DNA of 41,269 nucleotides from Methanoregula sp. Lineage in GTDB: Archaea; Halobacteriota; Methanomicrobia; Methanomicrobiales; Methanospirillaceae. The notes beneath the pieces are model-generated. The model was not told the DNA's origin, did no database searches, and saw only the letters and a program-made list of their open reading frames with translations. The stretch spans positions 1-41,269 of the forward strand of contig JAUYTV010000039.1 in NCBI GenBank assembly GCA_030694985.1, written 5' to 3'. A program made the position numbers and the translations under genes. Positions 12,418 through 20,420 of the stretch are shown here, piece after piece (the stretch's first letter is position 1; each line of letters opens with the position of its first letter).

Positions 12418-13314
12418 ATGGCGAGTTTGTCTGAACCGTATGTAATCCACTACCCGCAGATCGTAGCGGTAGCCGATGAAACCGGCAGCCGGGTGGAACT
12501 GATCGAGTTTTTTGACTGTGTGGGCGGAGCGATGTGGTCGAAACATCACTATATCCAGAGCCCGGTGGTTAAGGATGTCTGCTGTGTGGGCGCAACCATG
12601 CGGTATTTATTAGAACCGCAATCGGTGAACCTTGCCCTCGAAGGCTCCCGCTTCCCGGCGGGCATTTCTGCCTGTACCGTTGACAAATCCGAAATTTCTG
12701 TTACGTATATCGGCATGGGCGGTGGCGGTGTGGGTGCTGCTGCCTGCCGCTCGGATGCACGCGGGGTTATAAGGAGCCGGAGCGATCCTGCGGGTGGAGG
12801 AAAAGTGGCCGGTGCCACGATCTGGATGAGACGGATGCAGCGGGTGCTCATCGGGGTGGATGATACTGATACGCCGGAAGTTGGGGCAACGTGGACGCTT
12901 GTCCATAATATTGCAAAAGCTGTGGAAGATGAACATTCAGTTTATCTTTCGCACACGATAGTCCAGCTCTTCCCGGTAGCGTACCGGACCAAGAACTGCG
13001 TTGGTCTTGTTGCAGAGTTTGCCACAACAGATCCCGCAGGGCTTACCAAACGGTTCCACACCCTCTTAAAAAAATACACGCTATCCCAAAAGACCGGCAT
13101 GGCGGTCTACACCGCTTTTTCCCCATCAGAAGAATTACTTGCGTACGGCCGGAAGGTGAAACGCGGTGAGGTTGAACCGGGTCTCCATGAACAACTCAAG
13201 GATAAGAATTTAGAGATTATTATGAACGGCCGGGGCATCACCGGGGCAGTTGCAGCAATCCCGTTCTTTACCCGGTACGAGGAGGCACTCGAACTATGCA
13301 GTGGACCGACTTAA
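12418..13314 (+). CDS. Methanogenesis marker protein 11
   Basis: This 298-aa protein matches my recall of the methanogenesis marker 11 family (TIGR03280), found across methanogens and of unknown function. Visible features are HYPQIVAVADETGSRVELIEFFDC near the N-terminus, a glycine-rich YIGMGGGGVGAAACRSDARG stretch in the middle and, from about residue 140, RVLIGVDDTDTPEVGATWTL. The DDTD motif with its flanks resembles the nucleotide-binding DDTD segment of TiaS, the tRNA-Ile2 agmatidine synthetase, so an ATP-dependent activity is possible (inference). It is the first gene of a tightly packed unit with the aks coenzyme B genes. Its start has GAGGT about 9 nt upstream, and its end overlaps the radical SAM gene by 19 bp. 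Confidence 0.85.
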   Translation: MASLSEPYVIHYPQIVAVADETGSRVELIEFFDCVGGAMWSKHHYIQSPVVKDVCCVGATMRYLLEPQSVNLALEGSRFPAGISACTVDKSEISVTYIGMGGGGVGAAACRSDARGVIRSRSDPAGGGKVAGATIWMRRMQRVLIGVDDTDTPEVGATWTLVHNIAKAVEDEHSVYLSHTIVQLFPVAYRTKNCVGLVAEFATTDPAGLTKRFHTLLKKYTLSQKTGMAVYTAFSPSEELLAYGRKVKRGEVEPGLHEQLKDKNLEIIMNGRGITGAVAAIPFFTRYEEALELCSGPT

Positions 13315-14261
13315 AAGCAAAACTCCTATCGTTAGGTTCAGCAAGAATCACCGGTGAACCTGCCGACCGTTACATTGCCCGTTCCACCGCAGGCCCCGGT
13401 GCCGGCGGGAGCGGGGCTGTCTTCTTTTCCATGGGCAGTCACCGGGTCAAGCTTGCCTTAAACCCTCTCAGCGCAGTAGAAATCGCCCACAGGGGCAATG
13501 GGGTTGCTGACCTCTATTTTGAAGGGGCCCTCATATCGGGACGACTCCTTGAGCCGGGATTTCACTGCCCCGACCAGGCGTTCATCACCGTGACTGGCAG
13601 CTGCATCTTCCATTGCCGGTACTGTCCTGTACCGACACTGGGCGGCAAACGAAAGTCAATTGAAGAGATCATGGGAATGGTTGAATCGGTCCGGCACCGG
13701 ATTACGGCAATTTCTGTTACGAGCGGGGTGCTCGAAACGATCGAAGAAGAGGAGTCCTATGTGCTTGAAGTGGTTAAGCACCTGCAGGCCTGCAATCTCC
13801 CCATCGGAGTTTCGATTTATCCTACTGACCAGACGCCTGACCGGCTCAAGGCCCTTGGTGTGGCTGAAGTGAAGTTCAACATCGAAGCGGCAACCTCAAC
13901 CATTTTTGCAAAGCAGTGCCCGGGGCTTAATTATGAACAGCTCTGGCGTGTGCTCGACCGCTCGGTGGAACTCTTTGGGAAAGGAAGGGTGTTCTCAAAC
14001 GTGATCATCGGTCTTGGCGAGACTGATGGGGAGATGGAGGCCTGCATCAAACGGCTGACTTCTCACGGGATAATTCCTGTGCTGCGCCCGCTCAACCCGG
14101 TTGCTGAATTGACCGGTACCCCCCGCCCGTCAGCGGAACGGTTAAAAAAGTTTTTTGCTATCCATACCCGCGAACTTGCCAGAGCAGGACTTGATCCCCA
14201 TCAGGCACTCACCATGTGCTCGAACTGTGCCGGCTGCGATCTGGTGCCGGGGAGGGACTAA
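13296..14261 (+). CDS. Radical SAM protein, biotin synthase-like
   Basis: The 321-aa product has a classic radical SAM cluster motif, CIFHCRYC (CX3CX2C, about residue 103), followed by the expected SAM-binding pattern (ITAISVTSGV, VKFNIEAAT, VFSNVIIGLGET). The general form is that of biotin synthase-related radical SAM enzymes (COG2516-like, by recall). At the C-terminus MCSNCAGCDL adds a CX2CX2C group that could bind an auxiliary cluster or metal. It lacks the multi-cysteine N-terminus of Mmp10, the McrA arginine methylase, and is shorter, so it is not that protein. The start overlaps the marker 11 gene by 19 bp and the TPP gene begins 1 nt later, so they are almost certainly co-expressed. 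The substrate is unknown. Confidence 0.85.
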   Translation: MQWTDLKAKLLSLGSARITGEPADRYIARSTAGPGAGGSGAVFFSMGSHRVKLALNPLSAVEIAHRGNGVADLYFEGALISGRLLEPGFHCPDQAFITVTGSCIFHCRYCPVPTLGGKRKSIEEIMGMVESVRHRITAISVTSGVLETIEEEESYVLEVVKHLQACNLPIGVSIYPTDQTPDRLKALGVAEVKFNIEAATSTIFAKQCPGLNYEQLWRVLDRSVELFGKGRVFSNVIIGLGETDGEMEACIKRLTSHGIIPVLRPLNPVAELTGTPRPSAERLKKFFAIHTRELARAGLDPHQALTMCSNCAGCDLVPGRD

Positions 14262-14262
14262 C

Positions 14263-15534
14263 ATGAAAGGCATTGATGTGATCACAGGAGCACTGCTCGC
14301 ATGCACTGACCGGCAATATACCGTACCGGGATTTCCCGTAACTGAACTGGGCGCTAAAACCCGTGCAGAGATGGTGATCAATGAGAAAACTGCTCTTGAA
14401 TATGCATTGGGTGACTCGCTTGAGGGGCGACGAGCAGCAGTCATTATCAAGAATGTTGGTGTGAACGCATGCGCCGATCCCCTGTTACAGGCAGCTGCCC
14501 AGGGTCTCATCGGGGGTGTGCTTCTCGTTGTCGGGGATGACCCGGAAGCACTGGGATCGCAGACCGCACAGGACTCGCGGTATTACGGCGAACTTGCAGA
14601 ACTTCCCGTAATAGAACCCGATGCCTCTACCTGTTATGCCGGTGTCGAGGCAGCTCTTGCAGCATCCGAGCAGTTCTCAAGGGTTGCGATGCTCAGGCTG
14701 ACACCTGAAATATTCGATGCGGAAGTGAAATATTTACCCGTACCGCGACATCCCGGGAAAGGGCGCCTCTCTGACCGTTCGTGGACAATGAACGGGAGGA
14801 TAACGGCTGCTGAGGAATTGTACCGGACCATGTTTGACTGGTCGAACGCTTCTGCATTAAACCAGTGGAAGGGAGACCCAGCCGGTGTTGGTGCTGCGAG
14901 AGGAAACACCCGGATTGTTACCGTACATCCCCTGCCGGCACAGGCCGCACGGATAACAGAAGTGCACGAGGTTGGCCGGACATTTGTCCGCGATCACCGT
15001 GGCCTGCAACCGCCTGCTCCCCAGCAATCCCCGGAAGTGATGCAGAGTCGTGGGTATTACCGGACATTCTGTAAAAACTGCCCGTTCAAACCGATGATGA
15101 ATCTTCTCAAAGCACGGCGGATGAACATGATATGCGATGCTGGCTGTTCAATACTGGGAATGACTCCCCCGTACGAGCTGGGTGTTGCCAGTTACGGCAT
15201 GGGTTCGAGTATTGCAGTCGCTGCCCGGAGCACAAAAGTTGCCCTTATTGGTGACTATGCCCTGCTCCATTCCGGCCTGAATGCGTTGATCGATGTGTAC
15301 GAAAAACACTTTCCGCTGCTCTGCATTGTGATGAACAACAACTGCACAGCGATGACCGGCAAACAACGCTCCTATGATCCGGCCCCCTACCTCCTGTGGG
15401 CAGACCCGGTGATATGCAGTGCCGATGATGAAGAGACATTGAAAAACGAGCTCGTGGTGACGGACACGCCCCGCACGCTTGTAGTAAATGGTACCTGTCC
15501 GGAGGGAAGCAGCCATGAAACCGTTAACTATTGA
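14263..15534 (+). CDS. TPP-dependent enzyme, IorA-like without ferredoxin domain
   Basis: This 423-aa protein has the PYR-PP domain order of indolepyruvate:ferredoxin oxidoreductase alpha (IorA). In the N-terminal half are INEKTALEYALGDSLEG, KNVGVNACADPLLQ and VGDDPEALGSQTAQDSRYY. In the C-terminal half are CKNCPFKP, DAGCSILGMTPPYEL and the TPP/metal segment GDYALLHSGLNALIDVY with MNNNCTAMTGKQ. The two [4Fe-4S] motifs that end IorA are absent, and no IorB gene is adjacent, so an oxidative ferredoxin-linked reaction looks unlikely. It lies directly ahead of aksA and overlaps it by 20 bp. A non-oxidative 2-oxoacid decarboxylase, such as 2-oxosuberate decarboxylase for coenzyme B, is my inference from context. 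The start is set at 14263 by GGAGGG 7 nt upstream. Confidence 0.85.
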   Translation: MKGIDVITGALLACTDRQYTVPGFPVTELGAKTRAEMVINEKTALEYALGDSLEGRRAAVIIKNVGVNACADPLLQAAAQGLIGGVLLVVGDDPEALGSQTAQDSRYYGELAELPVIEPDASTCYAGVEAALAASEQFSRVAMLRLTPEIFDAEVKYLPVPRHPGKGRLSDRSWTMNGRITAAEELYRTMFDWSNASALNQWKGDPAGVGAARGNTRIVTVHPLPAQAARITEVHEVGRTFVRDHRGLQPPAPQQSPEVMQSRGYYRTFCKNCPFKPMMNLLKARRMNMICDAGCSILGMTPPYELGVASYGMGSSIAVAARSTKVALIGDYALLHSGLNALIDVYEKHFPLLCIVMNNNCTAMTGKQRSYDPAPYLLWADPVICSADDEETLKNELVVTDTPRTLVVNGTCPEGSSHETVNY

Positions 15535-16642
15535 GATCTGTGATGTGACGTTGCGGGACGGGGAGCAGACGCCCGGGGTGTCGTTCTCCTGCGAAGAGAA
15601 GGTAAAGATTGCAACCATGTTAGACACCATCGGTGTCGAGGTCATTGAAGCAGGATTTCCTGCTGTTTCACAGAATGAGGCACACTGTGTAAAGACTATT
15701 GCAAACCTCGGTCTTGACGCCCGTATCTGCGGATTTTCCAGGGCCCGGGAAGGCGATATCCAGACGGCAATTGACTGCGATGTGGAGATGGTGAGCATCT
15801 TTATCCCGACCTCCGAACTTCACGTCCGGCTCAAGTTCAAAAAATCACGGCATGAGGTGCTTGCAGATTCGTTAAAAATGATCGATTACGCCCGGGATCA
15901 TGGCGTGGCAGTGCGGTTTGCCGCTGAGGATGCGTCCCGGACTGATCTTCCCTTTTTAAAAGAAGTCTATCGCGGAGCAGCTGAACACGGGGCTGCCCTG
16001 CTCAGTTTTGCCGATACCGTCGGTTGCCTGATCCCCACAGAGATGCAAAGCATCATGACTGAACTCGTATCTTCTGTGGACGTGCCGTTCTGCGCCCACT
16101 GTCATAATGACATGGGCTGTGCTGTGGCAAACACGATCACCGCTGCCCAGGCGGGTGCCTTCCAGCTTCATACGACGGTCAATGGGATTGGGGAACGGGC
16201 GGGTAATGCCTCATTAGAAGAGGTGCTTGTCGCCCTGCGAATGAAAGGAAACATTGACAGGTACGATCTCTCCCACTTAAACAAACTCTCGCATATGGTA
16301 GAAAAATTCTCCGGAATAACGCTTCCCATGAATAAACCGGTAACCGGAGAACTTGCGTTCTCCCACGAGAGCGGCATACACATTGCTGCAATCCTTGAAG
16401 ACCCGTCAAGCTATGAATATTTCCCCCCCGATATGGTAGGCGGAGAGCGGCATTTCATCTTAGGGAAACATACGGGCAAAAAAGCACTTGAGCACGTCAT
16501 GGCCGGGCTCGGCTGCGAATGTACAGACAAGCAGGTCTGTCGTGTCCTTGACCTTGTCAAGGATCACTCTGAACACAAATGCAACATCACGCCGGAAATC
16601 TTAAGAAAACTGATCACAAAAGCACAGCGGGAGAATGCCTGA
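15515..16642 (+). CDS. aksA: Homocitrate synthase family protein (AksA)
   Basis: AksA condenses acetyl-CoA with 2-oxoglutarate and with its longer homologues, starting each round of 2-oxoacid elongation toward 2-oxosuberate for coenzyme B. The 375-aa product has the DRE-TIM signature CDVTLRDGEQTPGVSF at the N-terminus, SFADTVGCLIPTEM, the metal-binding HCHNDMGCAVANT segment and NGIGERAGNASLEEV. The family also includes isopropylmalate and citramalate synthases. Assignment as AksA rests on neighbouring homoaconitase and homoisocitrate dehydrogenase genes and on overall form. ATG at 15515 with GGAGGG 8 nt upstream is preferred over starts further upstream. It overlaps the TPP gene by 20 bp and shares one base with aksD (TGATG). 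Confidence 0.88.
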   Translation: MKPLTIEICDVTLRDGEQTPGVSFSCEEKVKIATMLDTIGVEVIEAGFPAVSQNEAHCVKTIANLGLDARICGFSRAREGDIQTAIDCDVEMVSIFIPTSELHVRLKFKKSRHEVLADSLKMIDYARDHGVAVRFAAEDASRTDLPFLKEVYRGAAEHGAALLSFADTVGCLIPTEMQSIMTELVSSVDVPFCAHCHNDMGCAVANTITAAQAGAFQLHTTVNGIGERAGNASLEEVLVALRMKGNIDRYDLSHLNKLSHMVEKFSGITLPMNKPVTGELAFSHESGIHIAAILEDPSSYEYFPPDMVGGERHFILGKHTGKKALEHVMAGLGCECTDKQVCRVLDLVKDHSEHKCNITPEILRKLITKAQRENA

Positions 16643-17853
16643 TGGCGACATTATCAGAACGGATTTTAGGCGGAAATGCCGGTGAGTATGTGGACCGGAA
16701 GGTGGACCGGGCCTATGTCCACGATGGTACTGGTGTTCTCACGCTTGAGGCATGGAAACGTATCGGGAGTGAGCGGCTCACCGATACAACCCGGCTCTCG
16801 ATGCTCTTTGATCATATCGTGCCGGCAAACAACAGCACGACAGCAACGCTCCAGCATGAACTGCGGGAATTTGCCCGGGGTTCATTCATGCACTTCTCGG
16901 ATGTGGGATGTGGGATCTGCCACCAGATCATGAGCGAGGGCCTCGTGCTTCCCGGTGAAGTTGTTGTCGGTGCCGACTCGCACAGCTGCACGCTTGGGGC
17001 ATTTGGTGCATTTTCAACCGGTGTCGGGGCAACGGATATGGCCGCAATCTGGCTGACCGGAGAGACCTGGTTCCGCGTCCCCGAGACCATCGGGATACAC
17101 CTGTCAGGAAAGTTCTCCGGTGCAGCAGAAGCAAAAGACCTTGCACTTACGTATGTGAGCAGGCTGGGTATGGACGGCGCCACGTACAAGGCACTGGAGT
17201 TTACCGGCGATGGGGTTTTGGGACTCTCCATGGATGACCGGCTCGTCCTTTCCAACCTTTCAGTAGAGACCGGGGCAAAGGCCGGGTTGTTCTATGCCGA
17301 TGACGTGACGGTGCAGTATCTCGCCCGGGCCGGGCAGATGGTACAACCGCAGGTACCAGAGCCGTGCAGCTATGCACAGGAACTCACCATTGACCTGTCA
17401 GAGATTGTGCCGCTGGTTGCCGTGCCTCACCGGGTTGATACGGTCAAACCCGTGCGGGAGATTGCCGGTCTTCCTCTTGATCAGGTATTTGTCGGCACCT
17501 GCACAAACGGGCGGTATTCCGATCTTGCACGGTTTGCCCGGATCGTCAAAGGAAAGAGTGTGGCGGTGCGGACAATTGTCGTCCCGGCCTCAAAAGCGGT
17601 GCTGGCAGAAGCGATCCGGACCGGTGTGCTCACCGATCTGGTGGATGCCGGTTGCACCATCGGAACACCCGGCTGTGGCCCCTGTCTTGGCGCCCACAGT
17701 GGGGTGCTCGGCGAAGGAGAAGTCTGCCTTTCTACAGCAAACCGGAACTTTAAGAACCGGATGGGTGTCGGTGCTGCGATATATCTTGGCTCGGTTGCTA
17801 CGGCAGCAGCGAGTGCGCTTGAAGGCGAGATCACCGAACCGGAGGTGAACTGA
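16642..17853 (+). CDS. aksD: Homoaconitase large subunit (AksD)
   Basis: AksD with AksE isomerises (homo)n-citrates to (homo)n-isocitrates through the aconitates. The 403-aa product belongs to the aconitase/isopropylmalate isomerase family. It has FDHIVPANNSTTATLQHELR, GADSHSCTLGAFGAFSTGVGA split in the usual way, and cluster cysteines in VFVGTCTNGRYSDL and in TPGCGPCLGAHSGVLG. That gives the three Cys (one plus CX2C) that hold the [4Fe-4S] cluster. The ATG overlaps the aksA stop by one base (TGATG) and its stop overlaps the aksE ATG in the same way. The start MATLSERILGG is the family-like one; an in-frame start 21 codons upstream is inside aksA and unlikely. Confidence 0.9.
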   Translation: MATLSERILGGNAGEYVDRKVDRAYVHDGTGVLTLEAWKRIGSERLTDTTRLSMLFDHIVPANNSTTATLQHELREFARGSFMHFSDVGCGICHQIMSEGLVLPGEVVVGADSHSCTLGAFGAFSTGVGATDMAAIWLTGETWFRVPETIGIHLSGKFSGAAEAKDLALTYVSRLGMDGATYKALEFTGDGVLGLSMDDRLVLSNLSVETGAKAGLFYADDVTVQYLARAGQMVQPQVPEPCSYAQELTIDLSEIVPLVAVPHRVDTVKPVREIAGLPLDQVFVGTCTNGRYSDLARFARIVKGKSVAVRTIVVPASKAVLAEAIRTGVLTDLVDAGCTIGTPGCGPCLGAHSGVLGEGEVCLSTANRNFKNRMGVGAAIYLGSVATAAASALEGEITEPEVN

Positions 17854-18323
17854 TGACATCAAAAGGTCCGGCCGTCTGCGTGGGACCGGATATCGATACG
17901 GACCTTGTCATCGCAGGACGATACCTGCGGACAAAGGACCACAGCGTCTGGGTTGAGCATGTGTTTGAGGATCTCGATCCATCGCTTGCCCCCCTTCTTG
18001 AAGGATCGGTGATCGTGGCAGGGAAGAATTTCGGCTGCGGGTCATCGCGGGAACAGGCCGCAGTTGCGATCCGTGAAGCCGGAGTTGTTGCAGTAGTGGC
18101 ACCCTCCTTTGCCCGGATCTTTTTTAGGAACGCGATCAATGTGGGTCTCCCACTGATCGAATGTGACCTCACCTGCACGGAAGGATGCCTTGTGACATTT
18201 GATCTCTCCGAGGGTTGGGTTGAAGCGGAGGGAAAGAGACATTCAATCCACCCGTTGTCGCCTCGCATGCAGGCAATCCTCTCTGCCGGGGGACTGGTGG
18301 AGTACTGGAGGAACCAGCGTTGA
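17853..18323 (+). CDS. aksE: Homoaconitase small subunit (AksE)
   Basis: AksE is the small swivel-domain subunit of methanogen homoaconitase and sets substrate range. The 156-aa product has the substrate-loop motif YLRT at residues 24-27 (GRYLRTKDHS). In work on the Methanocaldococcus enzyme this loop, with its Arg and Thr, separates homoaconitase from isopropylmalate isomerase. Other family motifs are GKNFGCGSSREQAA and the RIFFRNAINVGLPLIE segment. This supports a role in the coenzyme B pathway over leucine synthesis. The ATG overlaps the aksD stop (TGATG), and the next gene starts within its stop codon. Confidence 0.92.
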   Translation: MTSKGPAVCVGPDIDTDLVIAGRYLRTKDHSVWVEHVFEDLDPSLAPLLEGSVIVAGKNFGCGSSREQAAVAIREAGVVAVVAPSFARIFFRNAINVGLPLIECDLTCTEGCLVTFDLSEGWVEAEGKRHSIHPLSPRMQAILSAGGLVEYWRNQR

Positions 18324-19120
18324 TCTTTCCTGAACAGTGCAAGCAGGTAGGGTATGCGACAACAAAACCCTGCGGGGATCTGGTGTATTTCCTGAGCCGT
18401 TATCTCGTGCGGGAAACCGGTGCGGGCTACGAACTGCTCGCCATCACTCCTGATCCCAATGGGAGCGGTATGATGCGAAAAATCGTATCATCAGAAGTAA
18501 TCGCGACGGTAAAAGAAACTTACCGCTACGCGGATAAGGTGCAGATCCATGACCGTGCCCGGCTTGTCGAGCTGGCGCTGGATTCCGGGTACCGGTGCAC
18601 GATCTTCTCCGGGCTTGACGAGCACATGACCTTTGTGCTCGATCCCGATCTATCGGGATTTCTTACGATTCATGTCTACGATGTGACACCACCCCGCCCG
18701 AGCCTGTCTGCCTGTTTACAGGAGCTTTCGGCAGCAGGACTCTTCGGGGAACTTGCCGTCACGTTCTGCCATCATACCCGGGACATCACGCAGGTGAAAG
18801 CGGATGTCTACCCCTGCCGGGCGGCAGGGTATGAAAAAACGCTTGATGCGGATTTGATGCACGGCGGCGAGAAGGTGGCCGGCTGCCTGACCGGTTCGCA
18901 GTTTTACACTGAATGTTATGGCAAGGATTTCACGCTTGAGAATATCTGCCCCTTAGAGTCCGTGCAGCAAGAGCCGTTCATTGCCCGCTGCTGCCGTTCA
19001 GAACGCGAGGGGATAGGCATGTACAAGGGAAAGTTTGGGGCTGTAGTGCACTGGGGTGCAAGTCCGTCCCGTATTGCCCATGCAGTGGAAGATATGGTGG
19101 CACAGTGGAGGAGGAGATGA
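18320..19120 (+). CDS. Uncharacterised conserved protein in the coenzyme B unit
   Basis: This 266-aa protein is not one I can assign to a function. It starts with TTG, three bases of which overlap the aksE stop, and GGAGG lies about 8 nt upstream. It ends in ATGA overlap with aksF, so it is translationally coupled on both sides. No signal peptide or membrane segment is seen. Notable are about ten cysteines (for example ARCCRSEREG near the C-terminus and VTFCHHTRD in the middle), LVYFLSRYLVRETG near the N-terminus, and a C-terminal GKFGAVVHWGASPSRIAHAVEDM segment. Its place between the aksE and aksF genes argues for a role in coenzyme B synthesis or its control. That is context only. Confidence 0.85.
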   Translation: MIFPEQCKQVGYATTKPCGDLVYFLSRYLVRETGAGYELLAITPDPNGSGMMRKIVSSEVIATVKETYRYADKVQIHDRARLVELALDSGYRCTIFSGLDEHMTFVLDPDLSGFLTIHVYDVTPPRPSLSACLQELSAAGLFGELAVTFCHHTRDITQVKADVYPCRAAGYEKTLDADLMHGGEKVAGCLTGSQFYTECYGKDFTLENICPLESVQQEPFIARCCRSEREGIGMYKGKFGAVVHWGASPSRIAHAVEDMVAQWRRR

Positions 19121-20094
19121 CGCGGATTGCCATTGTTGAAGGGGATGGGATCGGTCACGAAGTGATTCCGGTTGCCCGCAGTGCGCTCGAACTGCTCCAT
19201 CCCGAGTATGATTATTTCACGGTGGATGTGGGGTATGGCATGTGGGAGCGGACCGGCTGTCCCTGTGCAGATAAGGAGATCCGCGAGATGAAGGATGCGG
19301 ACGCGATCCTGTTTGGGGCTGTCACCACCCCGCCCATGAAGGACTACCAGAGCGTGGTGTTAAGGATAAGAAAGGGGCTCGACCTGTACGCGAACCTCCG
19401 TCCCGTAAAAGACGGCGGGTTTGACATCATGATCGTGCGGGAGAATACCGAGGGGCTCTATTCCGGTATCGAAGAGAGCAGCCCGGACCGTGCGACAACA
19501 TTGCGGGTGGTGACCCGGACGGGTTCGGAGCGGATTGTCCGCATGGCAATCAAACTTGCCCGGCAGCGACGGAAACTGTTGACGATCGGCCACAAGGCTA
19601 ACGTGCTCAAGTCCGATGTGCTCTTCCGGGACATCTGCATTGCCGAGGCAAAGGCTTCCGGGATTTCCTATAATGACAAATTCATCGATGCCCTCTCGCT
19701 CGACGTGCTCCAGCACCCGGCATCGTATGATGTGGTTGTCACAACCAACATCTTTGGAGATATCCTCTCGGATGTTGCCTCGTACCTTGTCGGGGGACTG
19801 GGACTGGTGCCGAGCGCAAATATCGGTGAGCGTTATGCTCTTTTTGAACCGGTGCATGGCAGTGCTCCGGATATTGCAGGAAAGAATCTTGCAAATCCCA
19901 TTGCTGCCCTGCGGAGTGCGGGGATGCTCTTAACCCATGTCGGGGATGCCGGGGGCGAGGATCATATTGAATCGGCAATCCGTGCAGTGCTAGCACAGGG
20001 GATCAGGACCCGGGACCTTGGGGGTTCGGCTGGAACGCGGGAGTTTGGTGAGGCGGTACTTCGTGTGCTTAAACAGACTGGAAGGGGTGCCTGA
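19117..20094 (+). CDS. aksF: Homoisocitrate dehydrogenase family protein (AksF)
   Basis: AksF oxidatively decarboxylates (homo)n-isocitrates to the next longer 2-oxoacid, closing each elongation round toward 2-oxosuberate. The 326-aa product shows the isocitrate/isopropylmalate dehydrogenase form: IAIVEGDGIGHEVIP at the N-terminus, VRENTEGLYSGIEE for substrate binding, GHKANVLKSDVLFRD, and the metal/NAD segment VVTTNIFGDILSDVASYLVGGLG with EPVHGSAPDIAGKNLANP. ATG 19117 lies directly after GGAGGAG and overlaps the previous stop (ATGA). A GTG four codons earlier is possible. Isopropylmalate dehydrogenase is the alternative, but the homoaconitase neighbours favour AksF. Confidence 0.9.
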   Translation: MTRIAIVEGDGIGHEVIPVARSALELLHPEYDYFTVDVGYGMWERTGCPCADKEIREMKDADAILFGAVTTPPMKDYQSVVLRIRKGLDLYANLRPVKDGGFDIMIVRENTEGLYSGIEESSPDRATTLRVVTRTGSERIVRMAIKLARQRRKLLTIGHKANVLKSDVLFRDICIAEAKASGISYNDKFIDALSLDVLQHPASYDVVVTTNIFGDILSDVASYLVGGLGLVPSANIGERYALFEPVHGSAPDIAGKNLANPIAALRSAGMLLTHVGDAGGEDHIESAIRAVLAQGIRTRDLGGSAGTREFGEAVLRVLKQTGRGA

Positions 20095-20420
20095 TGTTTG
20101 CAAAAAAACATGTTGCCGGGTATATTCCGGTTGCTGAAAGAATTGCCCGGAAGACACTGGTCCATGGGACGCATACCCTCATGACGGAATTCGTGCTGAA
20201 AAAGGATGCTGTTCTTCCCGCTCACAAGCACCCGCAGGAACAGACCGGGTACCTGGTTTCCGGTCATATGTTTCTCACCATCGGCGATGAAGTGTTTGAG
20301 GTATGGCCCGGTGACAGCTGGATGATTCCGGGGAATGTGGAGCATCAGGCAAAGATTGTTGCTGATTCGGTAGCAGTTGAGGTATTCTCTCCGGTCAGGG
20401 ATGATTACCTGCCGGGATAA
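20094..20420 (+). CDS. Small cupin-domain protein
   Basis: The 108-aa protein is a single cupin barrel. It has the first cupin motif in PAHKHPQEQTGYLVSGHMFLT (metal ligands H, H, E/Q and a Gly turn, shown here as pattern) and the second in PGDSWMIPGNVEHQAKI. It starts in a TGATG overlap with aksF and is the last gene of the nine-gene unit, followed by an oligo-T tract. Cupins of this size bind metals and act as enzymes, sensors or ligand binders. The substrate here is unknown, and a link to coenzyme B synthesis is inferred from coupling only. Confidence 0.85.
   Translation: MFAKKHVAGYIPVAERIARKTLVHGTHTLMTEFVLKKDAVLPAHKHPQEQTGYLVSGHMFLTIGDEVFEVWPGDSWMIPGNVEHQAKIVADSVAVEVFSPVRDDYLPG

Follow-up and report, generated by a model that had tools for sequence, protein, structure and literature searches.

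Coenzyme B is required by every archaeon that depends on methyl-coenzyme M reductase (MCR), and a paper of 2025 calls its biosynthetic pathway unknown (PMC12068725). COG1900 proteins make the aldehyde-to-thiol step of coenzyme M and are suspected by the same authors for coenzyme B; in M. acetivorans they are mutually redundant and, as a set, essential for more than coenzyme M, which suggests a role in coenzyme B (PMC12068725). Thermococcus LipS2, a radical SAM component of lipoyl synthase, places the omega thiol on the octanoyl chain, and its auxiliary [4Fe-4S] cluster is held by C85 together with C-terminal C276-X2-C279 (PMC9585515).

The locus described here, from Methanoregula sp., joins Mmp11, a radical SAM protein, a thiamine diphosphate (TPP)-dependent enzyme and a DUF7714 protein to known chain-elongation genes of coenzyme B in one overlapping unit, and no report of the radical SAM gene or the operon was found in the literature searched, subscription papers lying outside its coverage. 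The best single reading, to which we give a probability of about 0.38, is that the radical SAM enzyme acts directly on sulphur in coenzyme B biosynthesis, since LipS2, its nearest characterised sequence analogue, thiolates an omega carbon and coenzyme B likewise calls for a thiol at the omega end of its C7 chain. The enzyme, whose relatives repeatedly lie beside sulphur genes, is a testable candidate for the thiol-installing steps of the coenzyme. With four such proteins beside the chain-elongation genes, decarboxylation, thiolation, ligation and phosphorylation become assignable by direct assay, and a radical SAM family linked both to coenzyme B and to sulphur assimilation offers a concrete, falsifiable lead.

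The radical SAM gene and its operon

The window, by which we mean the whole stretch of 41,269 nucleotides that was analysed, carries a nine-gene operon in the order Mmp11-radical SAM-TPP enzyme-AksA-AksD-AksE-DUF7714-AksF-cupin, in which neighbouring genes overlap or abut (Table 1). The sequence-only reading that preceded this work had placed a radical SAM protein with a C-terminal CX2CX2C in a coenzyme B unit, next to a decarboxylase candidate. The unit is borne out by AksA, AksD, AksE and AksF, which lie downstream in the one operon, and the adjoining candidate proves to be a TPP enzyme akin to the alpha subunit of IOR. The radical SAM reading frame runs from an ATG to a TAA; a ribosome-binding-like GAGGAGG stands 10 nt upstream of the ATG (by eye), and the stop of Mmp11 overlaps the start by 19 nt.

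Table 1. Features of the operon and of the radical SAM protein in the window (positions in nucleotides).
Feature	Position	Strand	Basis
Mmp11 (TIGR03280)	12418..13314	+	269.6 bits vs cut-off 255.8; full match 12448-13293; TiaS-type TCKD, FLD (PF22641/PF08489)
Radical SAM protein, methanogen-type family, 321 aa	13296..14261	+	PF04055; AF2 model; LipA/HydE/MqnE/BioB-like fold
CX3CX2C AdoMet cluster motif, C103-C107-C110	13602..13625	+	invariant in 59/59 aligned sequences; 154/154 distinct sequences
Cys208, possible fourth cluster ligand or catalytic Cys	13917..13919	+	invariant column, methanogen-type family
C-terminal CX2CX2C, C308-C311-C314, presumed auxiliary Fe-S site	14217..14237	+	154/154 methanogen-type, 39/39 TIGR04043-type
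TPP-dependent enzyme, IOR alpha subunit relative, candidate 2-oxosuberate decarboxylase	14263..15534	+	TIGR03336 151 bits, below cut-off; PF02775
AksA-type homocitrate synthase family protein	15488..16642	+	PF00682, PF22617
AksD-type homoaconitase large subunit	16639..17853	+	TIGR02086 487 bits, above cut-off; extended ORF from 16579
AksE-type homoaconitase small subunit	17853..18323	+	TIGR02087 156.7 bits, above cut-off
DUF7714 protein, five invariant Cys	18320..19120	+	PF24830 298 bits
AksF-type homoisocitrate dehydrogenase	19105..20094	+	PF00180; AksF2_Meth 319 bits, below cut-off
Cupin-domain protein, last overlapping gene	20094..20420	+	PF07883 50.7 bits

Membership of the radical SAM superfamily follows from the CX3CX2C motif together with a score above the gathering cut-off for PF04055 (Radical_SAM; 51.7 bits against 29.5), the sole Pfam domain of the protein. 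Every NCBIfam model scored below its own cut-off in the profile search, the top partial scores being those of NF045502 (68 bits), LipS2 (65), TIGR04043 (60) and bioB (33). The family is a sister group to TIGR04043 that is itself uncharacterised and keeps the normal CX3CX2C. The search for an orthologue with a known function, which would have spoken against the sequence-only reading, found none.

The last residues of the protein, TMCSNCAGCDLVPGRD, form the CX2CX2C, and the columns that are invariant across both branches of the family tree (groups A and B, see below) comprise the three AdoMet Cys, C208 and C308/C311/C314. The 154 and 39 sequences of Table 1 are all the distinct methanogen-type and TIGR04043-type sequences collected. 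Since the C-terminal motif is present in all 154 distinct homologues, with every Cys an invariant column, its occurrence is not due to chance, and the conservation on which the earlier reading of the terminal Cys had depended extends to both types. Conservation thus points to C308, C311 and C314 as the presumed ligands of a second, auxiliary Fe-S site. The idea of C208 as a universal fourth ligand was dropped, most TIGR04043 relatives lacking this residue (by eye).

Conservation of the operon was counted in 80 Methanomicrobiales loci, each gene being scored only where the flank was long enough. Mmp11 was in place in 78/78, the TPP enzyme in 73/73, AksA in 69/69, AksD in 65/65, AksE in 62/62, DUF7714 in 60/60 and AksF in 58/58. 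The overlap between Mmp11 and the radical SAM gene, measured from the true ORF ends, is 19 nt in 72 of 76 relatives and 4 nt in the other four (4/76). The same genes are grouped in two loci of a distant family (f14; L060 and L063), where the radical SAM identity is 40-44% and DUF7714 is found in L060 only. In locus L190, whose family we take to be that of the genus Methanosarcina, Mmp11, the TPP enzyme and AksA stand together and the radical SAM gene is absent from the unit.

Several further features of the neighbouring genes deserve mention. A second Mmp11-like gene (30-36% identity) lies just upstream in many relatives and is lacking in the window. Mmp11, whose TCKD domain is the kinase-type domain known from TiaS, could in this operon be the enzyme that places the phosphate on the threonine of coenzyme B. 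The TPP enzyme has about 423 aa in Methanomicrobiales against 518-565 aa in Methanosarcina-type operons (L190:8172-9866), and the TIGR03336 scores (151 bits in the window, 273 bits in the Methanosarcina type) differ likewise, which points to an apparent loss or gain of a region. The five invariant Cys of the DUF7714 protein are C166, C189, C210, C224 and C225; the protein weakly resembles the XcbA coenzyme M family (52 bits against a cut-off of 150), fold searches with it returned no solved fold above noise, and it is a further candidate for making the thiol or for the ligation step.

Distribution of the family and its sulphur-gene neighbourhoods

The distribution of the family was followed in 247 genomes of the phylum, in which f1-f29 are our own family labels. 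The methanogen-type enzyme is present in all 106 McrA-positive genomes of f1-f8, f14, f21, f28 and f29 (106/106, hand count). In f9, f10, f12, f15, f18 and f23, McrA-positive lineages mostly without the methanogen type, a TIGR04043-type cousin is found instead: it was matched in 31 of 32 genomes tested (f9 was covered separately), the exception, G083, being a genome without McrA, and G110 shows only a fragment that contains a stop. In the tree, group A consists of the Methanomicrobiales operon copies, and every remaining sequence falls into group B, second copies and the operon copies of f14 among them; the genome of the window has a group A copy only.

This close tracking of McrA, together with an mcrA gene within the same window (G000:C35:377-757), might suggest that the radical SAM enzyme modifies MCR post-translationally, in the fashion of Mmp10 or MgmA. 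Such a role is highly improbable, however, as the neighbours are enzymes of small-molecule biosynthesis, relatives of the TIGR04043 type occur in bacteria, and the protein matches no Mmp10 model at E 0.001, with the Mmp10 structure 7qbu a weaker structural neighbour (Z 16.2). The earlier view that the protein is not Mmp10 is thereby upheld. Elsewhere, in one f15 locus (L186:7990-11133, G078), Mmp11 lies upstream of an apparent mcr operon, mcrB included (by eye), the McrA of that genome being found nearby at G078:C1:878285.

For class I methanogens the evidence comes from a single control genome, M. jannaschii, since the 80 loci retained from the contig scan are all from Methanomicrobiales. M. 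jannaschii makes coenzyme B and has Mmp11, and it gave no match to NF045502 at 1e-14 or to TIGR04043 at 1e-12, thresholds at which both M. acetivorans and the genome of the window do match. As no counterpart was detected in M. jannaschii at thresholds that find that of M. acetivorans, the family is unlikely to be a universal thiol-forming enzyme. Further, TIGR04043 cousins adjoin Mmp11 in Archaeoglobi-like loci (f9, f16 and f25), with and without McrA, so that the pairing with Mmp11 is wider than the linkage to Aks genes. Bacterial TIGR04043 relatives are annotated as the MSMEG_0568 family, which we take to be part of nitrilase (Nit1C) clusters, where a connection with sulphur is not evident.

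Sulphur genes are prominent around the group B copies of Methanomicrobiales, which lie in an island of SepCysS, MetX, MetY, CysK, CysE, ThiI, MoaD, MoeB and SufS (L077, L079, L084, L090, L231, L232, L237, L239 and L244). With a gene list compiled on the initial loci and tested on held-out ones, the island was present in 4/4 discovery and 5/5 held-out loci, while none of the control regions from this order (0/8) showed it. When the held-out group B loci from every family are taken together, sulphur genes were found in 6/20 against 1/20 in the control (Fisher p = 0.046). As a family-wide rule the association was rejected, copies of the Methanosarcinales type being mostly without sulphur genes, and the signal is mainly limited to Methanomicrobiales and f14.

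Such neighbourhoods bear on the idea that the radical SAM protein works outside coenzyme B, modifying tRNA together with Mmp11, a relative of TiaS, or serving another thio-cofactor or a sulphur amino acid, and that it is in the operon so that its expression follows methanogenesis. The TiaS-type TCKD and FLD domains of Mmp11 would suit it, as would the ThiI, MoaD, MoeB and JAMM genes near group B copies, the occurrence of Mmp11 with a TIGR04043-type enzyme in Archaeoglobi-like genomes without McrA, and the presence in M. jannaschii of Mmp11 without a radical SAM protein of this type. We nevertheless think it unlikely, for the rest of the operon consists of coenzyme B chain-elongation genes and the TPP enzyme, exceptionless in the 80 loci where testable, and in the Methanosarcina locus too Mmp11 adjoins the TPP gene and AksA.

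Thiol synthases themselves are neighbours of the TIGR04043 cousins, which directly adjoin COG1900/HcyBio genes in 12 loci of f10 and, at the opposite flank, in f12 (the loci of both families being L197, L198, L199, L202-L207 and L211-L215). The superfamily is thus tied genomically to sulphur and thiol chemistry in three ways: through the coenzyme B operon, the group B island and the TIGR04043-COG1900 adjacency. An L-ASST-type COG1900 gene was found in every complete Methanomicrobiales genome tested, including that of the window (G000:C25:62485-63498), which has this type only and lacks the shorter Mmp16-like gene. Group B copies are commoner in the order where the Mmp16-like gene is absent (15/36 against 6/40, p = 0.011; a hand count uncorrected for phylogeny).

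It is conceivable that a COG1900 enzyme of the L-ASST/Mmp16 type both reduces and thiolates 7-oxoheptanoate, and that the radical SAM enzyme with Mmp11 serves another step of the coenzyme B pathway, such as mobilising sulphur for the thiolating enzyme or late tailoring. The redundancy of the COG1900 proteins of M. acetivorans and their joint essentiality beyond coenzyme M speak for it (PMC12068725), as does the L-ASST-type gene in all those genomes. The adjacency of TIGR04043 and COG1900 genes suits a helper as well as a catalyst, and the pair of Mmp11 and radical SAM protein is more widespread than the Aks linkage. We know, however, of no radical SAM protein that serves COG1900 enzymes, which counts against a helper role, and overall this account is a serious possibility that we still hold to be somewhat doubtful.

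Proposed role in coenzyme B biosynthesis

The preferred reading remains a direct action on sulphur by the radical SAM enzyme. In this scheme AksA, AksD, AksE and AksF would construct 2-oxosuberate, and the TPP enzyme would decarboxylate it to 7-oxoheptanoate. The CX3CX2C cluster of the radical SAM enzyme would cleave SAM to yield the 5'-deoxyadenosyl radical, and the enzyme would help to make the C-S bond at the omega position of the 7-mercaptoheptanoyl arm, its putative auxiliary cluster acting as sulphur donor in the manner of LipS2 and LipA. Mmp11, with its TiaS-type kinase domain, may supply the phosphate. That the radical SAM protein belongs to coenzyme B at all is indicated by genomic association, and association alone proves no function.

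A sulphur role is favoured by the constancy of the Methanomicrobiales operon, the invariant CX2CX2C, the LipA structural neighbours, the sulphur islands, the COG1900 adjacency and the co-occurrence with McrA. It is weakened by the Mmp11-TPP-AksA unit of Methanosarcina without the radical SAM gene, by the TIGR04043-Mmp11 pairs in Archaeoglobi-like genomes without McrA, and by the bacterial MSMEG_0568 annotation and the sulphur genes in only 6 of the 20 held-out group B loci. Moreover, 7-oxoheptanoate, as the intermediate presumed here, is an aldehyde to begin with, so that its thiolation requires no C-H activation, which counts against thiolation by a radical SAM enzyme. The equivalent step of coenzyme M, for its part, is carried out by COG1900 enzymes, for which a part in coenzyme B is suspected as well (PMC12068725); this weakens the sulphur reading further, as does M. 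jannaschii, which seems to do without the family. The suggestion of sulphur insertion and thiol formation made from the sequence alone thus gains from the LipA and BioB fold neighbours and from the sulphur and thiol-synthase gene neighbourhoods, and loses from M. jannaschii and the COG1900 precedent.

A bolder version of the proposal would make the family an unrecognised class of sulphur-inserting radical SAM enzymes, marked by an auxiliary cluster at the C-terminal CX2CX2C and responsible for the omega thiol of coenzyme B among class II methanogens and their archaeal relatives, class I methanogens using a different enzyme; this extension we consider rather unlikely.

Comparison with characterised radical SAM enzymes

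The AF2 model of the radical SAM protein (pLDDT 95.3, pTM 0.92) has LipA, HydE, MqnE and BioB as its nearest solved structures, tied at VIA Z about 18-19.6, and the predicted fold class by itself picks no reaction. LipA, an enzyme of AdoMet radical sulphur insertion, provides the top neighbours (4u0o, Z 19.6, rmsd 3.1 over 234 residues; 5exj, Z 19.2, rmsd 3.1 over 225), although sequence identity with it is 16-17%. Identification as LipA itself was rejected: the protein lacks the N-terminal CX4CX5C, with one Cys (C91) before the AdoMet motif, has no RSSY, and scores 20.8 against 310 bits with the lipA model.

The description of the protein as biotin synthase-like stands only for the fold (Z 18.1-18.7 with 1r30 and 8vcw) and for a weak profile match, and fails for membership, the TIGR00433 score being 32.6 bits against a cut-off of 225; a phmmer comparison gave E 3.3e-6 over 255 residues. 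In the phmmer alignment to 1r30, moreover, the [2Fe-2S] ligands of BioB, C97, C128 and C188, face an insertion, G171 and F233, none of them a Cys.

Cousins of the TIGR04043/NF045502 type (the MSMEG_0568 family of variant radical SAM proteins) share with the window protein the C-terminal CX2CX2C, a similar N-terminal G-rich GP motif and, in Archaeoglobi-like genomes, the pairing with Mmp11. Membership was rejected at 59.6 bits against a cut-off of 303.7, and the first motif is widened to C-x6-14-C-x2-C in 38/39 of them, whereas all 154 methanogen-type sequences have CX3CX2C.

LipS2 (NF053743) is the best-scoring family with a known function, at 65.1 bits over profile positions 22-195, and membership was likewise rejected, the score being far under the cut-off of 270. 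The window protein differs from LipS2 in its extra N-terminal part, which places the AdoMet motif from residue 103 rather than 39, in its extra invariant C208, in its genomic setting without lipoyl context and in its terminal CX2CX2C where LipS2 has CX2C; what the two have in common is the CX3CX2C and the presence of Cys near the C-terminus.
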